Source: Agrypnia vestita
Lineage: Eukaryota; Arthropoda; Insecta; Trichoptera; Phryganeidae
Length of the DNA stretch: 64,000 bases
Direction of reading: 5' to 3'
Assembly (NCBI GenBank): GCA_016648135.1
Contig: JADDOH010002097.1
Location: forward strand, 186,001-250,000
Part shown: positions 5,201-48,524 of the stretch, piece by piece
Layout of the letters: every line of letters begins with the position of its first letter
How positions within the stretch are numbered: position 1 is the stretch's first letter
The notes under the pieces: generated by a model
The model's database searches: none
Told to the model about the DNA's origin: nothing
The model's input: the letters and a program-made list of their open reading frames with translations, nothing else
Program-made: the position numbers and the translations under genes

Positions 5201-8200
5201 GGGTTTAAAAGCAAAGGTAGCAATATCCAAAAAAAATTTAATGCAGTCATCGAAGATTATTAGTTACTGAATTTGAGATTTTATGGGAAATATAGCCTAT
5301 AAATTTATAGGAAACACGATTTTGAAGATGTGTAAAATCTATAATTCGGTAGACCTCTTTCCATTTAAAAAAGACAATCAAATTAGTATGTGTAAGCTGT
5401 GCATACAACGCACATTGTTTAGTTGTGTTGAGTTAGTCGTGGGTATAAACACCAACAAAACGAAACAGTGTATTTCGTACGCATAACTTACACATATTAA
5501 TTCGAATGTCTTTCTTAAATAGAAAGAAGTCTACATTCTGGAATAGTAATCCTCTGTGACTGCATTAAAAATATTTTTTATTTTTTTTTGATATTGCTGC
5601 CCTCATACCCCACATACTATATTTTTAATTTTCTATAAAAATATTTTTACACCTACTAATGAGAAGGAACTTAACGAAAAGGAGCAAAGAATGAATAATT
5701 TTTTCAAAGAGCTGACATGCCGTATGATTATTTTACTTGTGAAGCTGCGATTGTTGTGTCTCAGAATTTTCAACAAATGAATATTCATATTTGTTAGACT
5801 TGTTAGCCACCATTCTCAAGGTTTTTATAACAATTTTGTTTCATTTTTTTTTTTTCACACGAAGCAAACACATTGTGGTGAGACATAATATCTTTAAATA
5901 AAATAACTTTTTGTTTTACACCACTTTATTGAGTTTAAACCAACTAGTTTCGACTCACAACTGAGTCTTCATCAGGGTTCAGATATTAACCAGTTAACCC
6001 TGATGAAGACTCAGTTGTGAGTCGAAACTAGTTGGTTTAAACTCAATAAAGTGGTGTAAAACAAAAAGTTATTTTATTAAAAAAAAATTCGTTTCAGTTG
6101 CAAAACATTTTTTTAAATTTACTATAACTACACTTCATGATACAATTTAAACGTACACATATGCCTTTTTTTTATATATTATATACATGTATGTATAACA
6201 TATTATTTTAATTCTTATTTGCTAATTATCAATTAAAATAATGTTAAAATTAAAAACTCAACGTGGGTGAGGTCCGCAGCGACCAGCATTAAAATATTTG
6301 TGTTTGCATTCTAAAACCATTTTTAGAATTACAGTAAAATTTCATTTTACACGATAAATTCAGTCTGCAATTACCTTGCGCTCAGTGAAAGCCTGGATTA
6401 GTTCTAGTTAATCCATAGTAAAGTTTGATAAAGTACTACATATGAGGGGTATAAAAGCAAAGGCACAAATATCCCACTGAGATGTTTCTGAGATAAGTAC
6501 AAAAAACCTGTCACTGCTCAAGGAAATTTCTCTGGAATCTATGAAACCTACATCTTATTGGAAATAAATTTTTTAAAACAATTGCCACTTCATTTTGTTA
6601 TTTTATAAATGGGTACAAATAAATATTTAACTATTATTATGGACATTGTTGTGTTTACTACCAAATGGTGGATATTAATAGCTTTTGCTGTTTACATAAT
6701 TGGTATTGCGGTCTAAAATCGACATCAACTCATTTTAGAATGCGGCCATTTTGTCCCGTGACTCATCCATGGAGTTTGAATGGATATAAGTTATATTAGA
6801 GGATAGAAATATTTAAGAAAAAACGCATGAATTTTAATTCACTGAATGAAATCATAATTAAACGATTTGAAAATATTGGAACAATGATGTTTGAAGAACG
6901 CTTGACTTTTTCGTTTCATAATATACTCCATAGCTTCACACAAATTTCGGCATAATAATTTAATTATAATTTTTTTCTTTTGCATGATATCGGTCATCCC
7001 ATAAGTAATTGACTGCTGGTACAAAATTTGCGTGTCCCTGGTTTTATCTCGAAGTGAGTGATGTCTACCACAAAAGTTTTTCATCAGCTAGCATTGTTTC
7101 GTGTAATTTAACTGTGGAAAAGCATATGCTTTCTTTGCACGAGTTTAGGAAACAGAAAAAACTACTTTGGTGGATATAAATAGTGTTTATTGGAGAAACT
7201 ACTTCGTCTGTGATGTAAAAATTGCCACTCACAGTTTCAATCAATTTTTTACATGAACCGAGTTGAGACACAGCTCATGCACGGGCTCCATATGGTGCTT
7301 ATACCAATAGAGTGTAGTCAAGTCACACTAGTAGAAAAATAATAACAAAATAATAAAAAAATAACAAAACAAACCGAATTCAGTTAACGGCACAACATTT
7401 TCGCTGTAATGAGATTTTTTAATGTTTTGTATTTGTACATTCCATGTGAACATAGCGGCCCTCGTAGTATAGAGGATTCTGGGTTCGGTTCCACAGTAAA
7501 TCTTAGAGGTCATGTAATCCAACTTAGAGGTTTAATAATCCAACTTAGAGGTCACAATAAATCTATGTAGCTTGGGTGTTTTTGTGATGTGTTTCGCTGA
7601 CAAACCGGAGAATTTTCTTAATCACAGACCCTTGCTAACAGATAGATTTCTAGAACATTGCGAGTAGAAGTTATGGATACTTTGACATGAGTGATAAAAT
7701 TGTATGCGGCTCATGAGAATTTAGATTGTTCGTAGATGATGTAGCGAAGGAAGCAAAATACAGTACTTAACATTAATATTTAATATTAATTTATAATTTT
7801 TCAAATGGGCTTGATATTTTAAAGAAATTTACATAAATCACATCGAAAGAACACAGAAAAAATACTGTCATCACCATACATGCAGTCGTCACAGCTCAAT
7901 AGATAGCAACCGTACAGAAGTTGTCAAATCTTCTGGCGCCACCTAGCGGATTTTTTTCAAAGTTTTTTGAAAAACATTGGTTCCAATGGGAAGAAATAGA
8001 TGCCTCACCTAGAAAACATATGTTGGTGAAATTTAGCGACTTCTTTAAAGTCATTGTAGCTTAATAGGTAAAACTATAGAAAGTTCCAGGTTTGAGTGCC
8101 GATGATGACTATATTTTTTCAATAAATAAATTTTTCTCTACATCATTCTAAGAGGTTTATCCAATTTTAAACTATATTTAATTAATATTTTAAACTAAAG

Positions 8201-11200
8201 AACTAATAAAACAATTCAGCGACTTGGGTGTTTCAGTAAAATCTGCATGCCCGAGGTACATTAATAATAAATAATTTAAAGAAACATGAATTTCAATATT
8301 TAAACTATTTAATTGCCAATAGAGCAATTGTTCATTCCGAAAGTAAGCACCGGTGTGTTTTATTTTTCATTATTAAATCCGATGATACTACATTTTGAAT
8401 TAAATCCTGCACGGTGTGTTTTTAATTTTTTTCATATTGAGAGTGATATTATTTATGGACTGACCGATATATTTTGCATTTAATTTGTTAGCGAAAAATG
8501 AATTCACGTTCATCCAATGTCATGAAATCGTTCGACATTGAATACGGTGAATCAGTAAAAAATTAATGTCCTTTTGTTTTCTGTCCAGGAATCATTGTAA
8601 CCGCTTCGCAAAGTTCAGACAAAAGATACAATTACAGTACGACGCTTGTCGTTTTATTGACTGAGGTTTTGAAATTGATTACTTCAGTCGTACTCTATTG
8701 CAAAAAGTAAGTACATACATTCAATGTTTTATTGTAATTATCACAATTAACATCATTGTTTCCTGCATATAAAAATATGTATTAATTTCATTCCTTGATT
8801 ACGTGAATTTCAGACGCAATTATTTTGTGATCATTTTAAAAAATTGTTTACTTTGGATTTTTCATTTTATTGTCGTTTTTATATGACATAACTGCTATTT
8901 ATAACCATCAATATTTGTTGAAATCGAAATTGCTGTCAGTCAAATAAAGTTTCATGGTGAAAAGATGATAATGAAATGCATGCTAATGTATAAGAAACTG
9001 AAACACATTATGTAGCCCTATAAATATATATCACTTCTATTTAATAAAATAAATAAATATTTTAGTTCATAATATTTTTAGACAAAAAACACATATTTTC
9101 ATATGCTGAAACACTAATTAATAGTGATTGTGACACATAAATAGTTAATTTGTTAATATGTACATAGTTTGTTATTTTGAACTCATTGCTTTTTACATAA
9201 ATCTCTGGTATATTTTTGAAAGAGCAAAATAAGATTTTGAGTTAGTAATTTCGTCAGAATGGATGTCATTTTTAATTAATTGCGTTTGTTCATTTTTTTT
9301 CTTATAAAATTATTCTAATGTTGAAATTAAAATTATATTTTTTATTTTCAGTGAAAAACTTATCACCATGTTTAGAGTGATAAAAAGTAACTTGGTTCTT
9401 CTGGCTCTGTACTTCGTGCCGTCTCTCCTGTATTGCTTTTACAACAATCTCTCATTTATTAATCTGGTTACATTTGATCCCACTACGTATTATTTGCTAC
9501 TCCAGTTTCGAGTAGTTATAACAGCGCTTCTTTTCCAAGTAAGTTTAATTTCATATGCTGCTTTTATATACACTCATACCTCCATAGTCAATGTCCAGCT
9601 TAATGTTATACTGCGGACCATCATCGGGACCTTGAAATCCACTCCCCACTACTGTTTCTCCATACTTACAAATTTAACCCCGCCAAATATCAGACGAGAG
9701 ATTGCAACACTGAGGGAATACAAGAAGGCACTGCAAAATAGCGCAATACCTTTGCGCAGTGATATCGTTTCTCACCCTGTGTGCCGTTTAATGTTCCGAA
9801 AATCTTTCTGGGTAGAAGGAGAGAGGTTCCTCCAGTTAGTTCTTACTCCAAAGGACAGATGGAAACTTGAGTCAAAATCGTCTAATGTGAGAAATGCACA
9901 TCTCATACATGACCCTGCTGAGAGACAACCTGGGTTCCCACTGCCTCGTAAGCTCTGGGCCTAAAGACGGCGACGTGTGAATGCGATGCGGTGCAGACCA
10001 CCGAACATGTGATCAACGAATGCCCGCTCCACTCGTTCCCCGGCAGAACAGACGAGGTCCACAGGGTGACTCCTGAAGCCCTAGACTGGCTCTCAAACTT
10101 AGATGTCAACCTCTTAAGTTTGTGAGCCAGTTAGTGCTAGCTAATATACCAGATCCAATTAGTTAATATACCAATTCCAATTGGCAATAAAGAGAATGAA
10201 AGTAGACTGAATGCTGTGGAAATATATTCCCTTAGGCCCATGTGTGAAAAATCTTTGTATGATTGTGTAGAGAATTAATGAATTAGAAGTTAATGCAATG
10301 CTGGTTGTGGCACAGTAGTAAAGAAAGGATCACTGAGTTGGTTTGGCCATGTGTAATTGATGAGTGAGGAAAGAATGGTAAAGAAAATATATGAGATAAG
10401 TGTTGAAGGCAGCAGAAATAGAGGGCGTCTGCAAAAGACCCGGCATGACGATAAACTAAATATTGAATGATGGGCCTGTTAGAAGCATCAACAATCAAAG
10501 AATGTGCATAAGAAAATGCGTGAATGTGGATGAGGCAAAAATAGTGTGCTATGACAAAATAATGTGACACTATCCTATCTGCCTATCCCTGCGAGAAATG
10601 GCTTGATGGTTAGTTAATTAGTTTCCACACAAAACATCCTCATTTGTGATTATCCAACACCACAACTGGAAAGCTTCCAACATATTCCTCTCCAAGTGCA
10701 ATACTCTACTTTATATAATTAAAATAAAATACTTTTATGCTAGGTTTATTTCTCTTGAATAATTAACATTGTGTCACTTGGGACAGATTGTTTTTTTTTT
10801 GGTGAAATATTTTATTATGCATTTAAAAGTTAAATTGAATGGATGTTATAGTAATGATTTTAAATTCATTTCAGTTCTGAATAGACTTCCAAAATTATAC
10901 AATGTTATTTTTGTGCTTCAGGTTATATTCAAGAAAAATTTGAGTACTCGGCAATGGATTTCATTACTCACACTGACAGTCGGGTGCATGATCAAACACA
11001 TTGACTATGGTGAAAGCGCAAAGGCAACATTTCCCAGCAGTCATGATTCCGGAGGAGACACAACCAGTGTCACTCACAATGTTTGGAGCCAAATGTTAAG
11101 TTTGAGTGCCATGTTAATATTAGTGCAGTGCTTTTGTTCGTCTCTTGCCGGCGTTTATAACGAATACCTGTTAAAAAACAGGGGACTCACTGTTGACATT

Positions 11201-11614
11201 TACATTCAGAACATATTTATGTATCTAGATTCTATCATTTGTAATGTTGTCGTAATCGTGTTGCAGGGTAAAAGTGGAGAAGTTTTCAACATGCAATCAT
11301 TCGGCGCCGTGCTCAGAATAAATGTTATTATTATAATGATCAACAGTACCATGATAGGTATAGTGACGAGCTTCTTTTTGAAGATGATGAATTCTATTTT
11401 AAAAACATTTGCGAGTGCTCTAGAACTTGTGTTTACGGCGATAGCGTGCTACTTAATATTTGGTATTCTCATAAATTGGTTTACCGTTTTGTCTATTGTA
11501 ATTGTGTCTGTATCTGTTATTTTGTATTCGCAGAATCCGGTAGATAATCATGCCAAGAGTATTAAGTCCCATTCCGATCAAGTGCACTTGTTAGAAGAGA
11601 TTGAGGATGTTTGA
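2156..11614 (+). CDS. senju: Senju-like UDP-galactose/nucleotide-sugar transporter (SLC35A-type), 4 exons
   Basis: Exons at 2156-2243, 8589-8706, 9352-9538 and 10922-11614 join in frame through GT-AG introns to give 361 aa, with the stop at 11614. The protein is a multi-pass membrane protein of the nucleotide-sugar transporter family, which exchanges a nucleotide sugar for UMP across Golgi/ER membranes. Diagnostic stretches are NYSTTLVVLLTEVLKLI in exon 2, NNLSFINLVTFDPTTYYLLL in exon 3 and RQWISLLTLTVGCMIKHIDY in exon 4; these match my memory of Drosophila senju, the UDP-galactose transporter linked to Golgi glycosylation and Toll regulation. The last exon holds the hydrophobic C-terminal helices and a hydrophilic tail. 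Introns are 6,345, 645 and 1,383 bp and full of repeats. Substrate is inferred from family, not shown by the sequence. Confidence 0.88.
2508..2750 (-). mobile_element. LINE family L 3'-end remnant
   Basis: A decayed, internally deleted copy of the 3' coding end of the LINE at 17248-18155. It is recognisable by the GGCAGAG..ATAGAACGCCAT block and the AATTCCAGG(T/C)TTCACTTCC block shared with 37.1-37.6 kb. Confidence 0.55.
3540..3720. repeat. Relic related to foldback family 1
   Basis: Contains TATTCTGAAGTATTCTG at one end and GGATGAAGAAATTAGTATG near the other. These are degenerate forms of the terminal and internal blocks of the foldback family. A similar relic lies inverted at about 33.80-33.97 kb. 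Confidence 0.35.
3765..3895 (-). mobile_element. tRNA-derived SINE, family A
   Basis: Shares CTATGAAAATAGGACTAAC and the surrounding 130 bp with copies at 11.82 and 31.76 kb. The tRNA-like head, at the right on this strand, has a decayed B box (GGTGGTTCAAGCACC on the - strand). Confidence 0.6.
4322..4690. mobile_element. Inverted-repeat element, opposite-strand copy of the one at 23.03-24.01 kb
   Basis: Contains, in reverse orientation, the blocks AGAAGCAGAAATTG, GTGCAGTAATGGCATAT-like and ATAGACGGGATG-like that define the element at 23030-24010. Both ends carry ACACTCAAA in inverted orientation. No coding capacity is seen. Confidence 0.5.
4986..5165 (+). mobile_element. tRNA-derived SINE, family B
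   Basis: The head reads like a decayed tRNA (GGCCCTCATAGTCCATAGGG, then a weak B box near 5040). The tail block GGGCTTCATGGCCCATAACG is shared in degraded form with 27.65-27.79 kb. Confidence 0.5.
5350..5534. mobile_element. MITE family M (185 bp, long TIRs)
   Basis: Starts GTAGACCTCTTTCCATTTAA and ends with the inverse of GTAGACTTCTTTCTATTTAA. The inner part, TTAGTATGTGTAAG..GTGTTG..ACCAACA, is also self-inverted, so the element can fold into one hairpin. Other copies are at 21.4, 21.6 and 36.8 kb. Confidence 0.7.
5936..5986 (-). ncRNA. Hammerhead ribozyme, type I-like (left arm)
   Basis: On the - strand: AACC (stem I), CTGATGA (5969-5975), stem II GACTC/GAGTC, GAAAC (5947-5951), stem III palindrome ACTAGT, T as cleavage-site base, then GGTT pairing with AACC. 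All conserved core bases are present. The two-base-pair stem III suggests it would act best as a dimer. Confidence 0.72.
5994..6042 (+). ncRNA. Hammerhead ribozyme, type I-like (right arm)
   Basis: On the + strand: AACC (5996-5999), CTGATGA (6000-6006), stem II GACTC..GAGTC, GAAAC (6024-6028), stem III ACTAGT, T at 6033, then GGTT (6034-6037), which pairs with AACC as stem I. Predicted cleavage is after 6033. The fit to the hammerhead consensus is complete apart from the minimal stem III; activity is untested. Confidence 0.75.
7455..7512 (+). repeat. tRNA-like SINE head fragment
   Basis: GCGGCCCTCGTAGTATAGAG resembles the head of SINE family B, and GGTTCGGTTCC at about 7482-7492 is a good RNA polymerase III B box. 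The spacing between A and B boxes is too short for a functional tRNA, so it is a deleted SINE. Confidence 0.4.
8589..8706 (+). CDS. senju: senju-like exon 2
   Basis: Acceptor CAG|GA and donor AA|GTAAGT. Completes the split glycine codon, then reads IIVTASQSSDKRYNYSTTLV and on through a membrane segment to LYCK. Phase 1 in and phase 2 out, consistent with both neighbours. Confidence 0.9.
9352..9538 (+). CDS. senju: senju-like exon 3
   Basis: Acceptor TTTTCAG|T and donor CAA|GTAAGT. Reads EKLITMFRVIKSNLVLLALY, NNLSFINLVTFDPTTYYLLL, then FRVVITALLFQ: two membrane helices and the most conserved loop of the family. Reading on past the donor runs into the intronic LINE remnant, so the longer open frame to 9964 is not protein. 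Confidence 0.92.
9640..10140 (+). mobile_element. Non-LTR retrotransposon C-terminal remnant
   Basis: Lies in intron 3 of the senju-like gene. Two frames together carry PGFPLPRKLW, then CECDAVQTTEHVINECPLHS and VTPEALDWLSNLDV: a Cys-rich C..C..H..C motif and a TPEA-WL-LD tail typical of the end of some insect LINE ORF2 proteins. It is broken by a frameshift at about 9960. Confidence 0.65.
10190..10618 (+). mobile_element. LINE family L 3' fragment
   Basis: Same family as 17248-18155. The coding remnant contains KKIYEISVEGSRNRGRLQK-like sequence. The end is GAGAAATGGCTTGATGGTTA followed by a short GTTA-type repeat tail. Decayed and frameshifted. Confidence 0.7.
10922..11614 (+). CDS. senju: senju-like exon 4 (terminal)
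   Basis: Acceptor CTTCAG|GTT; stop TGA at 11612-11614. Encodes 230 aa: VIFKKNLSTRQWISLLTLTV, a Ser/Thr-rich loop, then the core with SLAGVYNEYLLKN, a signature of SLC35A transporters, and four or so hydrophobic helices ending NHAKSIKSHSDQVHLLEEIE. Open reading frame upstream of 10922 is intron. Confidence 0.92.
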   Translation, partial: VIFKKNLSTRQWISLLTLTVGCMIKHIDYGESAKATFPSSHDSGGDTTSVTHNVWSQMLSLSAMLILVQCFCSSLAGVYNEYLLKNRGLTVDIYIQNIFMYLDSIICNVVVIVLQGKSGEVFNMQSFGAVLRINVIIIMINSTMIGIVTSFFLKMMNSILKTFASALELVFTAIACYLIFGILINWFTVLSIVIVSVSVILYSQNPVDNHAKSIKSHSDQVHLLEEIEDV

Positions 11615-16900: not shown

Positions 16901-18212
16901 GGTGTCCCATAGCTAGCAGCAAAAACTTCAGGGGAGTTTCTTCGTTCAATTTTTAATAGAAAATATTCCTTACACTTTGGGTGAAATACATATCAAGAAG
17001 GTAAGCGTCAAAGTTTGCATTTTTTTTCCAAAAATTTTGAATTATTTTCTGTAAAACCTTGGACAGTAACTACAGCATTTATATGGAATATTAAATTTTT
17101 TTATTTATTCACTACATTTCAAGTAAAATGATAAAACCCTACAAAAATTATTTTTCAAATTTCTTCAAGGTTTTATCCATTTTATTTGACTTGTATGAAA
17201 GCGAATGAATATACTGTATAAAAGAATTTTTAATATTCTATATGAAGACACGATTATGGAAGGTACTTTCTGGTTACAAGGTGAACGGTAAACATATACA
17301 CGCAATTGCATCCCTTTACGAAGGAAGTACTGCATGTGTAAGAATCAATGGATCATTCACACCATGGTTTGATATTACAAAAGGTGTTAAACAGGGTTGC
17401 GTGATGTCTCCATGGCTGTTCAACTTGTATATGTATAATTGTGTGAAAGAACTGGAATGTGTGAATGTAGGAACGAAAATGAGTATTTTGATTGTATGCT
17501 GTTTACTGTACGCGGATGATGCAGTATTAATGGCAAATAGCGAACAAGACTTACAAAGTCTAGTAAGCAGGATGTATGATGTATGCAAGGAAAGTGACCT
17601 TATTTTGAATGTAAACAAGTCAAAAGTGATGGTACTCGAGAAAGAGGAAAGTAAGACAACGTGTGGAATACTAGTAGGTAATGAATGTTTGGAACAAGTA
17701 GATGAGTTTGTGTACTTGGGAAGTATGTTCGATAGAAGAGGGAATATTGAGAAAGATATCGAGAGGAGAGTGACTGCGGGGAATATGGCTAACGGTGTTT
17801 TGAACGCAATAGTGTCTGATAGAAATATGTCTACCAAGGCAAAACTAGCGGTACATTATTGTACCGTTCTGGTACCGAAACTGATGTATCTCTTGAACGT
17901 ATGTGCGGCGAATCCATTTATGATAGAGTAAAGAATGAAGATATTAGGAATGAATATAAAGCTGATCACAGCCAGATTAACCAGATACATAGATGGAAGA
18001 TGGTCGCATTAGAAGCCTCAACAACCGGCGAGCTTGCATGCGAAGATGTATGAATGTGGATGAGGCGAGAGTTGTATGTCAGGACAGAAGAGTGTGGCAC
18101 TTCTATCCTCCCTGCCTACCCCCACAGAGAAACGGCGTGATGGTAAGCAAGCAAACTATATGAAGAAACTCCCCTGAAGTTTTTGCTAATAGCTACGAGA
18201 CAACCTGTATAT
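16896..18212. mobile_element. Palindromic element split by a LINE
   Basis: Left end GGGTGTCCCATAGCTAGCAG, right end the inverse of ACAGGTTGTCTCGTAGCTAT, both followed inwards by CAAAAACTTCAGGGGAGTTT. The inner arms meet near 17150. The LINE at 17248-18155 is inserted in the right arm; without it the two sides form a continuous hairpin. Confidence 0.7.
17248..18155 (+). mobile_element. 5'-truncated LINE, family L, with 10-bp target duplication
   Basis: CTATATGAAG lies at 17238-17247 and again at 18156-18165, so the insertion is exactly bounded. It encodes the C-terminal half of a reverse transcriptase: GVKQGCVMSPWLFNLYM, the catalytic YADDAVLMA near 17510-17540, NVNKSKVMVLEKEE and LEQVDEFVYLGSMFDRRGNI. 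The frame breaks near 17880-17930 through an internal deletion. The 3' end is GAAACGGCGTGATGGTAAGC plus a GTAA/GCAA tail. The ATG at 17242 belongs to the target, not the element. Confidence 0.88.
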
Positions 18213-18749
18213 CACTATGTTTGAAAACTGGCAGACTTCAAAGCAAATATGAAAATTAATCTGTTGTGATATTAAAATTTTCTTATGCATTATTTTTTTT
18301 CAATAATGCTATGCAAGGCTCAGGGTCAGGAGAATATGGTGGGTGATTAATTATATTCCACTGCTGTTCCTTCAATTTATGCTGGATCACTGTCGCCAAA
18401 TGTCATACTATCCATTTAATAAGCTGCTGACCTAAATGAATTTATATAAAAAAAAATATTGCAATGGCTAATATATCATTTTATTAATGGTTTTCACATA
18501 ACTGTAAATAATTTCTTATCAATAAACGTTTAAAAGCAGTAAATGTTATAATGAAATATTTCTTCAGGTGGTAAATAATTCTTTTTTATTGGCATTGAAA
18601 TGGATAATGGATAAAGAAAGTGTAAAAATAACTGTTAATATATTATTTTTTATGTACAGTTGGTAACAGCATAGCCTAAGTTATAAATACTACATGCTAC
18701 TGGTTCCACACACACCTCCGGACAAAAAAGTTCGCACTTGCAAAATATT

Positions 18750-19216
18750 ATTTAACTGTTGGAACATATTGGAGCAATTAAAAACAACAACTCCAATATA
18801 TCGGCAATCTGCGAACATGCATCCAAAGGGAATCTCTGTCACTTTATCAGATTTGATAATACAAAAATCTTATCTACAGAACCGCACCTTATACCCAGAT
18901 TAGTAAGGGAGTTCAATGAAATACACAAACATCCCAATTTCAATAGTTACAAACTATCAAGTATTTGGCGCCCTGTTTTTACGACATTGATTCAACCCTT
19001 GAAAGACGTCGCAGTAAAGTCCGCCGATGTAACTAGTATATATTGCACACTGGCGACCTCTAGAAGAAGTGAACATTCCACAACAAAGTGCATATAATTT
19101 ACGGCCTCGAAAGCAGTAATCAGTCCGCCCTCTATCTCCGCTGGTAAAGGTCGTCCTCCTGATGACATTGAGTTAGCATTCGTCGAGAATCGTAACTATT
19201 TACAGTTAAATATGAT
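18750..19216 (+). mobile_element. Penelope-like element (PLE) C-terminal remnant
   Basis: Two frames carry HIGAIKNNNSNISAICEHA, KILSTEPHLIPRLVREF and NSYKLSSIWRPVFTTLI, the region after the GIY-YIG endonuclease core of Penelope-like elements. A frameshift separates parts of it. The 3' end (about 19140-19210) matches the right end of the copy at 41.3-42.0 kb and contains a decayed hammerhead core (CCTGATGACATTGAG..GTCGA). Confidence 0.75.
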
Positions 19217-39400: not shown

Positions 39401-42400
39401 TATTTAAAAGTAAAAATTCCAAAGCATGAGATATATGTCAACAAATTGCGTATTTTTCAAATTAGTCTCCGCATGCTGCCATTAGAGCACATGTCAATTT
39501 ACAGCTGCTCATTATTTTTGATTTAAAATCAGTAGAAGACGTATATCTATGTCAAATTTGTTTCAATTTGAACTAATATTATATTATACTATCAAAAGCA
39601 ATTGACATCTCCCATAAAAAATAAGGTTTTATATGAGTTTGTCCAACGGTTTCAACCTTTTTAGCCTTTAACGTGCGTCACTATTTCCTTTTTCTATGTT
39701 TAGTCCAGGCTCAACAATACGAGATTCTATGCGAATCAAGAAAAAGACTGTACGTGGCTTCCAACATGTAATTATTTTTCATTTAATATTATAGTATACA
39801 TTATGATTTGAAAAGTATTGCAGAATTATTAATAAGTTTCTTAAATTATTTACGGAAAATAATAATTAGACTCAAATAATATGAGCATTTGTCAAAATTT
39901 AAAATAAGTTAACATTTTGACTATTCCGCTGGGCACGAGCTGCTCTCGGGTGTTTCCGCATATTTTAGTGTCAGCATTCCGTACGGTTATCTTTTTTTCT
40001 CATCCTTCTGTCTCTCAGAGAATTTACTTATTATTGTTTATTGGCGTTCATCAAATAGCCATTTCAAGAAGGGTCAATTAATGATAACTCAAAGCCTATT
40101 ATTATTATATATATATATATATTTTTTTAAATTTATTCACGGCCAAGTTGACATTTTTGAAATGAAAAATTGATAAAGAATTTAATCATATATTTACATT
40201 GTTCAACAATAATGTAATCAGTATAGTATGCATTTATCAGCAAGATCCGGAATTATTTAAATTTGAATTAATTGGTTTCTTCCTTTTTACTTTTCAATGT
40301 TGACTGACAGCTTATGTGGCACATTGGTGTAGCATAACACATGAACACCCGGGCATCATGAAATCAATCATATTTGCCTTGTCATATACCTTGTTGGGAA
40401 TCGAACCCGAACTCCTCGGTATAAGAAGCCAATGTTACGCTGGGATGTTACTGGACTGCGAGGGAAGGGTTTCGGTAATAAATTATATTTTCAACACTAA
40501 AAAACATGGCTTATGGTAAAAGCGGCCACTAGACTATCTAACAATAACAATAAGCACGTAAATACTGTCTGAAGCCACACAGTGGCACACTAAATGGAAA
40601 ATGCTTTCTGCTGTCTTACCAGAATATTATGATTTTTACAAAATATTTCAAAAATATTAACATTGAATAAAAACAACCATGTTTAGAATGTCTTATAATG
40701 TGCAATTGGGAAAATTAATCGTAATAAAACATTGTTTGGTGTCATCTAATTTTCCTAATTTACATAATATAAATTATATATAAATATATCACTTGTCTAA
40801 GACCACTAATGAGTTTAGGAATACACAACTAGTTTCGACAACTGCAGATGTTGTCATCAACGGGTGGTTATATAAACGGGTTTATATTTATATATTGTAT
40901 ATACATAAGTGATATATTTATATATAATTATAATGTCATTCCACAAAGTTAACGCCAATTCAATAAATAATAATATAAATTTATGAAAACTATTTCATCA
41001 TTTAAAATGGAAACTATAGCTGTTGCACTTTACCCATCATAGAAAAAACTTGTTAGAGTAGTACATGATGCACATTTCTGTTATATTAAATAGGTGTCCA
41101 TAGCCAGTGGCTGTTAAATGATGATAAACTGTTTACAATTTATATTATATTATCACCGACCCAAGGACTGTTCAAAAGACAATGCTTCTATCTGTAAATT
41201 ATGACTGTGTTCTAGAGAATATGCATCATACAAAAAGGTGTCGCATTAAAGTATCTATCAAACGCATTTAATCAATGGTTAGGAGGTTTCGAAACTACGT
41301 GGCTGATATTATAATCAACATATTTAACTGTAACTGGTTGCGGATATTTTATACGAACCGCATGTTTTTCCGAAAAACGATTCTCGAAGTTTCGTTGAAT
41401 TCTTATTCAACATCATCAGGAGGACGACCTTTAACGCGGAGGTAGAGGGCGGACTGATTACTGCTTTCGAGGGCGCAAATTACATGCACTTTGTTGTGGA
41501 GTGTTCACTTCTTCTACAATAGAGGCCGCCAGTGTGCAATATGTACTGCGACATTTCTCAAGGCTTGAATCAATGTCGTAAGAACAGGGCGCCAAATACT
41601 TGATAGTTTGTAACTGTCATCTCTATTGAAATTGGGATGTTTGTATATTTCAATGGACTCCCTCACTAATCTGGGTATAAGGTGCGGTTCTGTAGATAAG
41701 ATTTTTGTCTTGTCAAATCTGATGAAGTGACAGAGATTCCCTTTGGATGCATATTCGCAGATTGCCCATATATTGGAGTTGTTATTTTTAATTGCTCCAA
41801 TATGTTCCTTCAATCGTTAAGAAAAAATATTGCATTTAGTTTGTCCTATGTAGAACGCTTCACAATCGCGTGGCACTCTGTATACACCTGGAGACGGTGT
41901 GTTATTGGTCGTCCTCCTGATGACATTGAATAAGAATTCAACAAAACGTCGAGAATCGTTTCTCGGAAAAACATACGGTTTGTATAAAATATCCGCGACC
42001 AGTTACAGTTAAATATGTCTAACGACCGTAATAACAACCTTAACTCTTTAATAATCAACATACATTATAGAAACATAATCTGAAAGAAAATATATAAAAA
42101 AAGAATACTTAATCGTAATAAACCAAATAGGGTGGAAAGAAGACAACATACTAGTGCAGGATCATGCTTCCATTCCCCATCGACACAAAACTTGTATTGG
42201 TGCTCTCCTTCGGGAAGATCTATAATAGTTACAAAATCACCGTGTGACTTTACCATAGGGAGGGTTTTCCAACCTGTGAATGTTCCACTTATGTAAACCT
42301 GTGGGGAAACGTACATAATGTTTAATTTTGTGTATAGAGTAACACGAAAATGACTAATTCTTTGTTCCATGTTTGTTCAAAACTTTGAAACTCAAACTCA

Positions 42401-47100: not shown

Positions 47101-47603
47101 GAACTAAAAAAATACCTGTATGTTAAATAATTTGGTTTAATGAAGGTGAGGTATAATTATGTACTTCGAACAAAAAAGCTTTTAAATATTTCTCCGATGT
47201 TATGAGCTCTCCTTGCACTTCGATTCTCCCCAGCATTTGTGAATCTATTAGATAGGTAGTCATTATTTAAGTCTGCCATAATAGAGTTTTCCATAAGATA
47301 CAGATTATTCATTTGGCACAAACGTCATTGGAGAAATGCGCAAAGTAACTGATCGTGACAACGCAAGACGCAATCAATGTGCGCGCTCCAATACGTACGA
47401 AAGTAGTCGTACGAATAATTCGTATCCAAAGTGCGGCCGGCCTATCAGTGATAATTTTACAATAAATATTGGTACAAGTGGCCCCTGTGTAAAATAAAAA
47501 AGTACTTATTTTTCGAAATAATTATGTAATTGGGTACCTACATGTCCCTAGCATTTTTCTGACAACACTGCTTTTAAACGTCAATGATCAAAAACACTTA
47601 AAA

Positions 47604-48524
47604 ATGTCGGAACCGTGTCATGACGGTAATTGTCATGGTACTTCTAATAATTTTTGTGCGGATGAATCTCCAACGAAGTTGATTGTTAATTACATTCCTG
47701 AAATCATGAATCAAAATATGATGTACTCTCTATTTGCGACTATGGGTAAATTAGAAAGTTGCAAACTTATTTCTAACCGTGGTTATGGCTTCGTGGAGTA
47801 TAGTAATCCCGAAGATGCTCTAAAAGCGAAAAAAGCCTTTAACGGATTACTTATGCAGAACAAGACGATAAAAGTGTCTCACGCATTGTTAAATCCCGGA
47901 TCTAAACCGCCTACAAAACCGGAGGCCGACTGGAACCTGTACGTGTGCAACCTCCCCAACGAGATGACACTACACGATCTACATAATCTGTTTGTACAAT
48001 TTGGAAAAATAGTGAATTCCCGCATATCCGCGGGTATTGCCTTTATCCTGTTTGAACAGCAATACGAGGCGGAGAGAGCGATACACCACATGAACGGCGT
48101 GATCCCCGACGGGTTCGTGCAGCCCTTGACTGTAAAGTATGCTAATAAATCCAACCCAAATAAACAGCGAAGCAATAACTTGCAACACAACACTTCTAGA
48201 GTACTAGTCTGTCCGCCCAAGGCTTATAGCTGGTACAATACTGTGCACGGAGTTCACGAGCACAACGTTCCCACTAGTTGGTCTGTATATGTGTATAATA
48301 TAGCTCCCGATGTAGAAGAATTAACTTTATGGCAATTGTTCGGTCCCTTCGGTGCTATTATATCAGTTAGAATAATCAAGGATCGGCAGACATATAGAAG
48401 TAGAGGCTATGGTTTCATCACTATGAGAAATTATGACCAAGCGGCTATGGCCATTCAGTCTCTCAATGGGTATATATTAATGGGACAGCCTCTGTCTGTA
48501 AGTTTCAAGACGCAGAAGAGATAA
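47604..48524 (+). CDS. Intronless ELAV/Hu-family RNA-binding protein
   Basis: One open frame of 306 aa, ATG 47604 to TAA 48524, preceded by AAAA. Three RNA recognition motifs in the ELAV order: RRM1 at 25-94 (RNP2 LIVNYI, RNP1 RGYGFVEY), RRM2 at 112-180 (RNP2 LYVCNL, RNP1 degenerate GIAFILFE), a linker, and RRM3 at 228-300 (RNP2 VYVYNI, RNP1 RGYGFITM), with the ELAV hallmark WQLFGPFGAI and a final SLNGYILMGQPLSVSFKTQK. ELAV/Hu proteins bind AU/U-rich RNA and control splicing, 3' end choice and stability. Compared with family members, the beta2-beta3 loops of RRM1 and RRM2 have each lost about 6-8 residues, and the N-terminus and hinge are short and unlike. No stops or frameshifts, so it is probably functional. 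Intronless state suggests a retrocopy; paralogue identity (elav, fne, Rbp9, Sxl) cannot be fixed. Confidence 0.93.
   Translation: MSEPCHDGNCHGTSNNFCADESPTKLIVNYIPEIMNQNMMYSLFATMGKLESCKLISNRGYGFVEYSNPEDALKAKKAFNGLLMQNKTIKVSHALLNPGSKPPTKPEADWNLYVCNLPNEMTLHDLHNLFVQFGKIVNSRISAGIAFILFEQQYEAERAIHHMNGVIPDGFVQPLTVKYANKSNPNKQRSNNLQHNTSRVLVCPPKAYSWYNTVHGVHEHNVPTSWSVYVYNIAPDVEELTLWQLFGPFGAIISVRIIKDRQTYRSRGYGFITMRNYDQAAMAIQSLNGYILMGQPLSVSFKTQKR

Follow-up and report, generated by a model that had tools for sequence, protein, structure and literature searches.

Features of the window

The window, that is, the whole stretch of 64,000 nucleotides of Agrypnia vestita DNA that was analysed, contains a small palindrome formed by two facing copies of one arm. 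The inverted repeat can be delimited as 5879-5979/5996-6096, matching at 93%, or as 5893-6082, matching at 93.7%. Arm 1, a pLTR on the minus strand (5897-5990), bears a tail, and its head lies at most 1 base from position 0 of the common 5' end of its repeat family; arm 2, a pLTR on the plus strand (5996-6078), lacks a tail and falls about 12 nt short of the family head at its 5' end. The two heads meet at CAGTT (5991-5995), a junction type absent from the other members of the set of 35 independent copies described below, and the arms show 0 differences at 83 compared sites. The Penelope 'tail' (TAAAGATATTATGTCTCACCACAATGTGTTTGCTTCGTGTGAAAA; 5852-5896, minus strand) is a 45-nt extension found on the side of arm 1 only. 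Possible target-site duplications are located at 5835-5843 (TTTGTTTCA) and 6088-6096 (TTCGTTTCA); this pair is weak, being 9 bp long with one mismatch.

The original prediction described two inverted hammerhead-type motifs with complete cores at 5897-6080, and all of the motifs that it named are present in their predicted places on both strands: CTGATGA, stem II GACTC/GAGTC, GAAAC, a palindromic ACTAGT, U at the cleavage position, and GGTT pairing with AACC. The motif of arm 1 occupies 5941-5975 on the minus strand, where CTGATGA is followed by an extra A, GACTC/GAGTC, GAAA and ACTAGT, with predicted cleavage at 5942/5941. That of arm 2 occupies 6000-6034 on the plus strand, with predicted cleavage at 6033/6034. 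The extra A between CTGATGA and stem II, found in each arm (6007 on the plus strand), had been overlooked, as had the leftward extension of the element by its tail. The pattern CTGATGA..GAAAC was matched 4 times in the 64-kb window compared to 0.16 expected, and all 4 matches fall within inverted pairs, namely 5893-6082 and two further pairs at 804-1079 and 41318-42018 that had also been missed. The expected folding of a read-through RNA was borne out by prediction: the two-armed RNA forms a single hairpin of a predicted -143 kcal/mol, compared to a predicted -8 kcal/mol for the bare hammerhead pairing and -15 kcal/mol for the best fold of one arm. Just left of the palindrome is an older one (5349-5534), 73% self-complementary, with outer arms at 5216-5272/5535-5601.

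The second head-to-head pair (804-1079) carries motif family B, with one motif at 867-893 on the minus strand and a decayed CTCATGA motif with palindromic ACCGGT at 984-1010 on the plus strand. It is flanked by outer inverted repeats at 508-549/1409-1452 and 537-612/1324-1397, and may be located inside another foldback-like element (508-1452). The third element (41318-42018) carries motif family C. Its inverted arms (41318-41435 and 41901-42018) surround a broken, 5'-truncated Penelope GIY-YIG endonuclease-like frame on the minus strand (41517-41903; GVYRV..AFYIGQT), and its motifs lie at 41389-41419 (minus) and about 41917-41947 (plus), the latter decayed, with AAAA for GAAA. The frame has one in-frame stop, which was left unrepaired and entered as X in the searches. 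It shares 47% identity with a moth protein of 223 aa and had no match in a Pfam search; neither this fragment nor its two relatives gave anything usable in Pfam, PDB sequence or PDB profile searches, and a structure model built for the two relatives was of too low a quality (mean pLDDT 49.5) to be of use. At 18739-19193, adjoined by a decayed motif, lies a sequence related (84%) to the family C endonuclease fragment. The long frames at 10763-11614, 17209-17931 and 47493-48524 are presumably, from their appearance, a nucleotide-sugar transporter, a piece of a LINE reverse transcriptase and an ELAV-like RNA-binding protein, respectively.

Identity of the hammerhead-type motifs

Covariance models had been named as a check of the motifs, and strictly the motifs did not pass. 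No Rfam model reached its gathering threshold in the window, and a search over 5700-6300 up to E=10 gave no hammerhead. The best result was obtained with the single arm 5986-6050, which matched Hammerhead_3 at 17.1 bits (E=0.1) compared to a cut-off of 48.5 bits, the extra A being aligned as an insertion. At 41360-41440, around the motif 41389-41419, no hammerhead was found up to E=10. Support from covariance models for the window motif is weak. The main Rfam matches of the whole palindrome, to microRNA-precursor and small-RNA models, were rejected as self-complementarity artefacts of the long hairpin. The core agrees with the hammerhead consensus CUGANGA..GAAA; in the consensus stem II follows A9 directly, and here the motif departs from it.

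A motif scan (CTGANGA, 0-3 unpaired bases, stem II of at least 5 pairs, GAAA) covered 229 kb, comprising the window and the loci L063-L082. It gave 38 hits, 35 with exactly one extra base, 0 with none or two and 3 with three, compared to 10 hits in all, none with one extra base, in 25 simulated sequences of the same size. Many of the 35 one-extra-base hits belong to the family of the window palindrome (family A), for which L063-L082 had been fetched, and 10 belong to five other motif families (B-F). Family B has stem II GATAC/GTATC, with ACCGGT in its other, decayed arm. Stem II is GTTGGATA/TATCCAAC and stem III ACGT in family C, and family D combines a GAAGCC/GGCTTC-like stem II with stem III ACATGT. 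Family E has stem III ACTCGAGT and a stem II that requires G-U pairs, and family F has stem II GAGAGG/CCTCTC, stem III ACTATAGT and a cleavage-position base that looks unsuitable.

It can be seen that the sequence of stem II varies among the families yet still pairs, and that each family has its own stem III palindrome, damaged in 4 of the 10 hits of families B-F. Stem I pairing is clear in families A and B, visible by eye in C and weak in D, stem pairing across families having been judged from the sequences. In family C the extra base differs: one of the two window arms has U, and the other has C, as do the copies in L067 and L070. In a viroid hammerhead an extra A is described as tolerated, the rate being moderately reduced, U as faster, and C or G as detrimental (PMC3705267); by this yardstick some family C motifs would be poor cleavers. 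The motif of the source element is supported because the core and the extra base are kept across the motif families, and their retention in five other families with changed stems supports a hammerhead-type fold that is real.

At 6135-6282 of L070 there are three close family C motifs: a minus-strand tandem pair spaced 54 nt apart, and a plus-strand motif facing it. Further motif families, with stem III ACATGT, ACTCGAGT and ACTATAGT, turned up incidentally in flanks, at 184 (plus) of L065, 130 (minus) of L069, 8949 (plus) of L066 and 770 (plus) of L075. Viral contigs were also scanned for CCTGATGAAG..CGAAACGT; the 15 stretches recovered all lack a stem II of at least 4 pairs and were treated as chance, and no match was found in the phage records searched.

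The repeat family in the Agrypnia vestita genome

With the palindrome as query, 1632 candidates were found at first look in its own 1.32-Gb assembly; 40 places were scored, and all of them match on both strands. The 39 scored places other than the window were fetched and one (L032) was dropped, its tail falling below the fuzzy match, leaving 38 copies that together with the window form sample 1 (39 copies analysed). Exclusion of L045, L047, L049 and L062, which share their flanks with other copies as judged from the sequences, leaves 35 independent copies. In every copy of sample 1 the same arm occurs twice, head to head, a state uninformative on its own frequency in a sample chosen by palindrome similarity, and the best-scoring copies have a fixed overall shape of about 210-240 bp. 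The tail (TTTAAAGATATTATGTCTCACCACAATGTGTTTGCTTCGTGTGAAAA) is one-sided in 38 of the 39 copies and present on both sides only in L024.

Sample 2 was drawn with a tail-only query and was not selected for palindromes. This query gave 1744 candidates, of which 40 were scored, all with a perfect 76-nt tail match; 7 of these places had already been obtained and 33 were fetched, with about 500 nt per side for 13 of the 33 loci. An inverted arm is present in 20 of these 33 unselected tail-bearing copies, plus the 7 places obtained earlier, and 13 of the 33 have no inverted arm within the fetched stretch. The tail is one-sided in 19 of the 20 two-armed copies and on both arms in L069. The inter-arm distance ranges from 0 to 763 nt in 19 copies, and the ends overlap in L095.

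Flanks share at least 8 bases in 24 of the 35 independent copies, compared to 5.7% of mismatched flank pairs, and at least 10 bases in 20 of the 35, compared to 0.4%. This sharing marks target-site duplications across many copies.

The arms as pLTRs of a Penelope-like element

The arms of the palindrome are the pLTR of a Penelope-like retroelement (PLE), which in fuller copies follows a frame with a GIY-YIG motif. L080 contains, in order, an inverted tail-less pLTR, a 5'-truncated endonuclease frame of GIY-YIG type (177 aa) and a tail-bearing pLTR. Both L080 and L068 (90 aa) have, upstream of the pLTR, a frame containing SGIYKLRCND.PAFYIGKT, the GIY-YIG nuclease motif. A 119-aa frame in L071 starts inside the GIY-YIG motif at the fetched edge and ends 59 nt before position 0. 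The Pfam GIY-YIG model matched the L080 frame at 19.9 bits (E=0.00095), just under its cut-off of 22.6, and Pfam gave no match for the L071 piece. The third element of the window follows the same plan as L080, with its frame broken.

Penelope-like elements have a GIY-YIG endonuclease at the end of the reading frame, upstream of the 3' pLTR, inverted head-to-head pLTRs with variable 5' truncation, an optional tail of 30-40 bp on one pLTR, and a target-site duplication of variable length, about 8-14 bp. The family agrees with them in each of these features, the frame being seen in L080, L068 and, by its second half, L071, and the duplication being weak in the window copy. The connection of the palindrome with PLEs and their dimer-type hammerheads, made in the original prediction, is supported by the repeat family, the tail and the GIY-YIG frame upstream of the pLTR. 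No reverse-transcriptase domain and no complete element were recovered in the fetched copies of the palindrome's family.

Junctions and decay of the copies

In sample 1 the tail arm ends at position 0-3 of the common head (AGTTAATATCTG) in 33 of 39 copies and the other arm in 34 of 39 (29 and 30 of the 35 independent copies, respectively), and the junctions contain 0-14 extra bases or a short overlap. No copy among the 35 has both arms cut by more than 6 nt. Of the 33 unselected tail arms, 7 end at position 0-3, 3 reach 4-20 nt further upstream, 16 reach more than 20 nt, and 7 are truncated inside. Since both arms of L064, L075 and L095 are cut well inside the pLTR, the common 5' end is not valid for all copies; many templates, not all, stop at position 0. 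We infer that position 0 is the 5' end of an RNA. From the upstream sequence TTTTTATTTAG it could alternatively be a splice acceptor; the upstream exon expected in that case is found in none of the short copies inspected.

The suggestion that the palindrome is maintained for a function, either as a switch that alternates between ribozyme cleavage and a silent hairpin or as a dedicated source of small circular RNA, appears highly improbable. It would agree with the two intact motifs of the window copy and with the predicted stability of the long hairpin, but the other copies behave differently. The comparison of core and flank named with the original prediction turned against the switch: core bases are non-consensus at 22 of 742 sites among the 35 independent copies (14 of 653 without the CpG site and L029), compared to 28 of 2729 in the 3' flank (27 of 2651 without L029), so that protection of the core, although looked for among the copies, was not found, and the core changes at least as fast as the flanks. 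Only 18 of 39 copies have both cores intact, with 53 of 78 arms intact (15 of 35 independent copies and 47 of 70 arms). The 35 independent copies show 27 junction types, and in six copies (L029, L051, L054, L056, L058 and L061) core or stem II bases are lost at the junction. Nor is there a tandem direct repeat in the searched flanks, unlike the retrozymes as described in PMC7229834. The sequences therefore give no sign of a palindrome kept for a function, and neutral decay of dead copies says nothing on the source element.

The same junctions bear on the idea of a foldback or MITE-like DNA element mobilised as a preformed hairpin, which is scarcely credible here. High copy number and the fixed shape of the best-scoring copies would suit such an element, as would the junction types common to several independent copies, the commonest to 6 and another to 3; shared junctions are, however, equally expected from two arms that end at a common RNA 5' end. 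A transposon of this kind has fixed ends and one duplication length, whereas the junctions are of many types, the distance between arms varies widely in the unselected sample, the shared flanks have no single fixed size, and the fuller copies contain an endonuclease frame of retroelement type.

Origin of the palindrome

The palindrome is, with high confidence, a single PLE insertion whose coding part was lost by 5' truncation and whose two pLTRs were joined head to head. The repeat family, the structure of the arms, the one-sided tail, the many target-site duplications, the variable junctions, the common 5' end and the GIY-YIG frame are all observed features. The variety of junctions (27 types in 35 copies), the six junctions that lose core or stem II bases, and the duplications that flank the whole palindrome indicate that the palindrome arises at insertion. 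The element protein would cut both target strands, and the free target ends would prime cDNA at two internal points of the element RNA, the end of the tail for one and about 40 nt upstream for the other. Two strand ends primed at different sites would leave one tailed and one tail-less arm, as is observed. The cDNAs would run to the 5' end of the RNA or stop short, and the heads would then be joined. As copying would initiate close to where the reading frame begins, an RNA whose 5' end is position 0 would yield the short leader alone, and tiny palindromes would result. The hammerhead would belong to the leader of the source element, being carried along in the window copy and probably idle there. 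The object in the window is most likely an unremarkable insertion by an element of known type, and the many tiny copies record the mechanism of insertion.

Whether the two arms are copied from one RNA or two can be judged from diagnostic sites. At site 55 both arms are of the same type in 34 of the 35 copies of sample 1 and 11 of 15 of sample 2, together 45 of 50 (shuffled mean 25.5, maximum 39). Sample 2 alone has 11 of 15 concordant compared to about 8 expected from the counts, and does not separate RNAs of the same source from random pairing. The two subfamilies differ in age, with 1.2% and 2.1% divergence, and this difference by itself raises the agreement of the arms. In eight copies the arms are of different type: L070, which differs at three diagnostic sites, L073, L084 and L086 (site 55), L090 (site 74), L041 and L093 (site 8), and L024, which is of mixed type at site 55 and has two tails. 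The single-site differences could be mutations, and that of L093 may be an effect of alignment. Because L070 differs at three sites and L024 is both mixed and two-tailed, two RNA templates appear usable; as read from these copies, two different RNAs can be joined in one insertion, with at least one copy mixing two subfamilies at three sites.

Fold-back self-priming, in which the cDNA copies itself at its 3' end and both arms derive from one molecule, is a rather unlikely alternative origin for the second arm. The agreement of subfamily state at site 55 speaks for it, as do five private changes that the two arms have in common in copies of sample 1 (two fall at a CpG site), and a related self-priming, with an antisense template, has been proposed for the Penelope of rotifers (PMC3846280). 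However, fold-back should copy the tail, yet the second arm is tail-less in 38 of 39 copies of sample 1 and 19 of 20 of sample 2. No private change is common to both arms in the 20 two-armed copies of sample 2, and arms of different type occur in the eight copies named, with several sites involved only in L070. An obligate origin of both arms from the same molecule, for which the case from sample 1 looked strong, was weakened by sample 2 and is not proposed here.

Under the preferred reading, priming from both target strands, stem III may be relevant. Its palindrome, different in each of the six families (ACUAGU, ACCGGU, ACGU, ACAUGU, ACUCGAGU and ACUAUAGU), might serve mainly as a dimer-initiation site that unites two element RNAs in one particle, these being copied from the two target strands to give head-to-head arms. 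We regard this role as decidedly unlikely; if true, it would explain why the arms are usually, not always, of one subfamily. Titles and abstract openings in the literature on Penelope twin priming and PLE hammerhead dimers contain no two-template claim, and no literature match was found for a hammerhead with a head-to-head inverted repeat in a retroelement, most subscription journals being outside the coverage in both cases. Many tiny two-armed insertions form a natural record of integration, showing where copying starts, the place at which many templates end, and the possibility of two RNAs per insertion. Both the two-template model and the dimerisation role of stem III become testable by counting in the genome of Agrypnia vestita.

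Comparison with known systems

Small hammerhead variants of PLEs reportedly cleave as dimers, as Cervera and de la Pena (in 2014) and Lunse, Weinberg and Breaker (in 2017) are said to have found. These variants are reported to resemble the Agrypnia motif in their minimal stem III, conserved core and location in the pLTR; the Agrypnia motif has a palindrome of 4-8 nt as stem III and one extra base after A9. PLE hammerheads, inverted pLTRs and tails have already been described, and what is new here is this host and family, together with the counts of arms, tails and templates. Minimal hammerheads in PLE pLTRs have been published (PMC6155905, PMC7229834 and PMC7761336), and PMC7761336 describes the role of hammerheads in Penelope elements as unknown.

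The plus-strand hammerhead of chrysanthemum chlorotic mottle viroid shares the extra residue between A9 and stem II, although it belongs to a viroid RNA and its sequence is unrelated to the Agrypnia motif (PMC3705267). Metazoan non-LTR retrozymes also have hammerhead motifs in small non-coding repeats; as described in PMC7229834, they consist of tandem direct repeats with full-size motifs and give circular RNA, whereas the Agrypnia copies are inverted pairs with minimal motifs. A second, direct copy of the Agrypnia pLTR was found in none of the 20 loci fetched, within at most about 4 kb per side (422 nt upstream in L071).

Rotifer Pen2a_Av is much more alike. The account in PMC3846280 includes inverted head-to-head pLTRs, palindromes at their junctions, an optional tail on one pLTR, target-site duplications of 8-10 bp and a GIY-YIG frame. 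Compared to Pen2a_Av, the Agrypnia arms are shorter (about 95-140 nt), there are more than 1,600 candidate copies, and the copies of sample 1 consist of the leader only, without a coding part. The green anole element Poseidon PAc (PMC11167929) likewise carries its hammerhead in the pLTR, close to where the reading frame starts, and has a tail between two start sites of reverse transcription, which are reported there as internal sites bounding the tail. Its hammerhead RNA was cleaved only with protein added. The purified PAc protein cuts and extends both target strands in vitro. The Agrypnia family differs from PAc in host and sequence.
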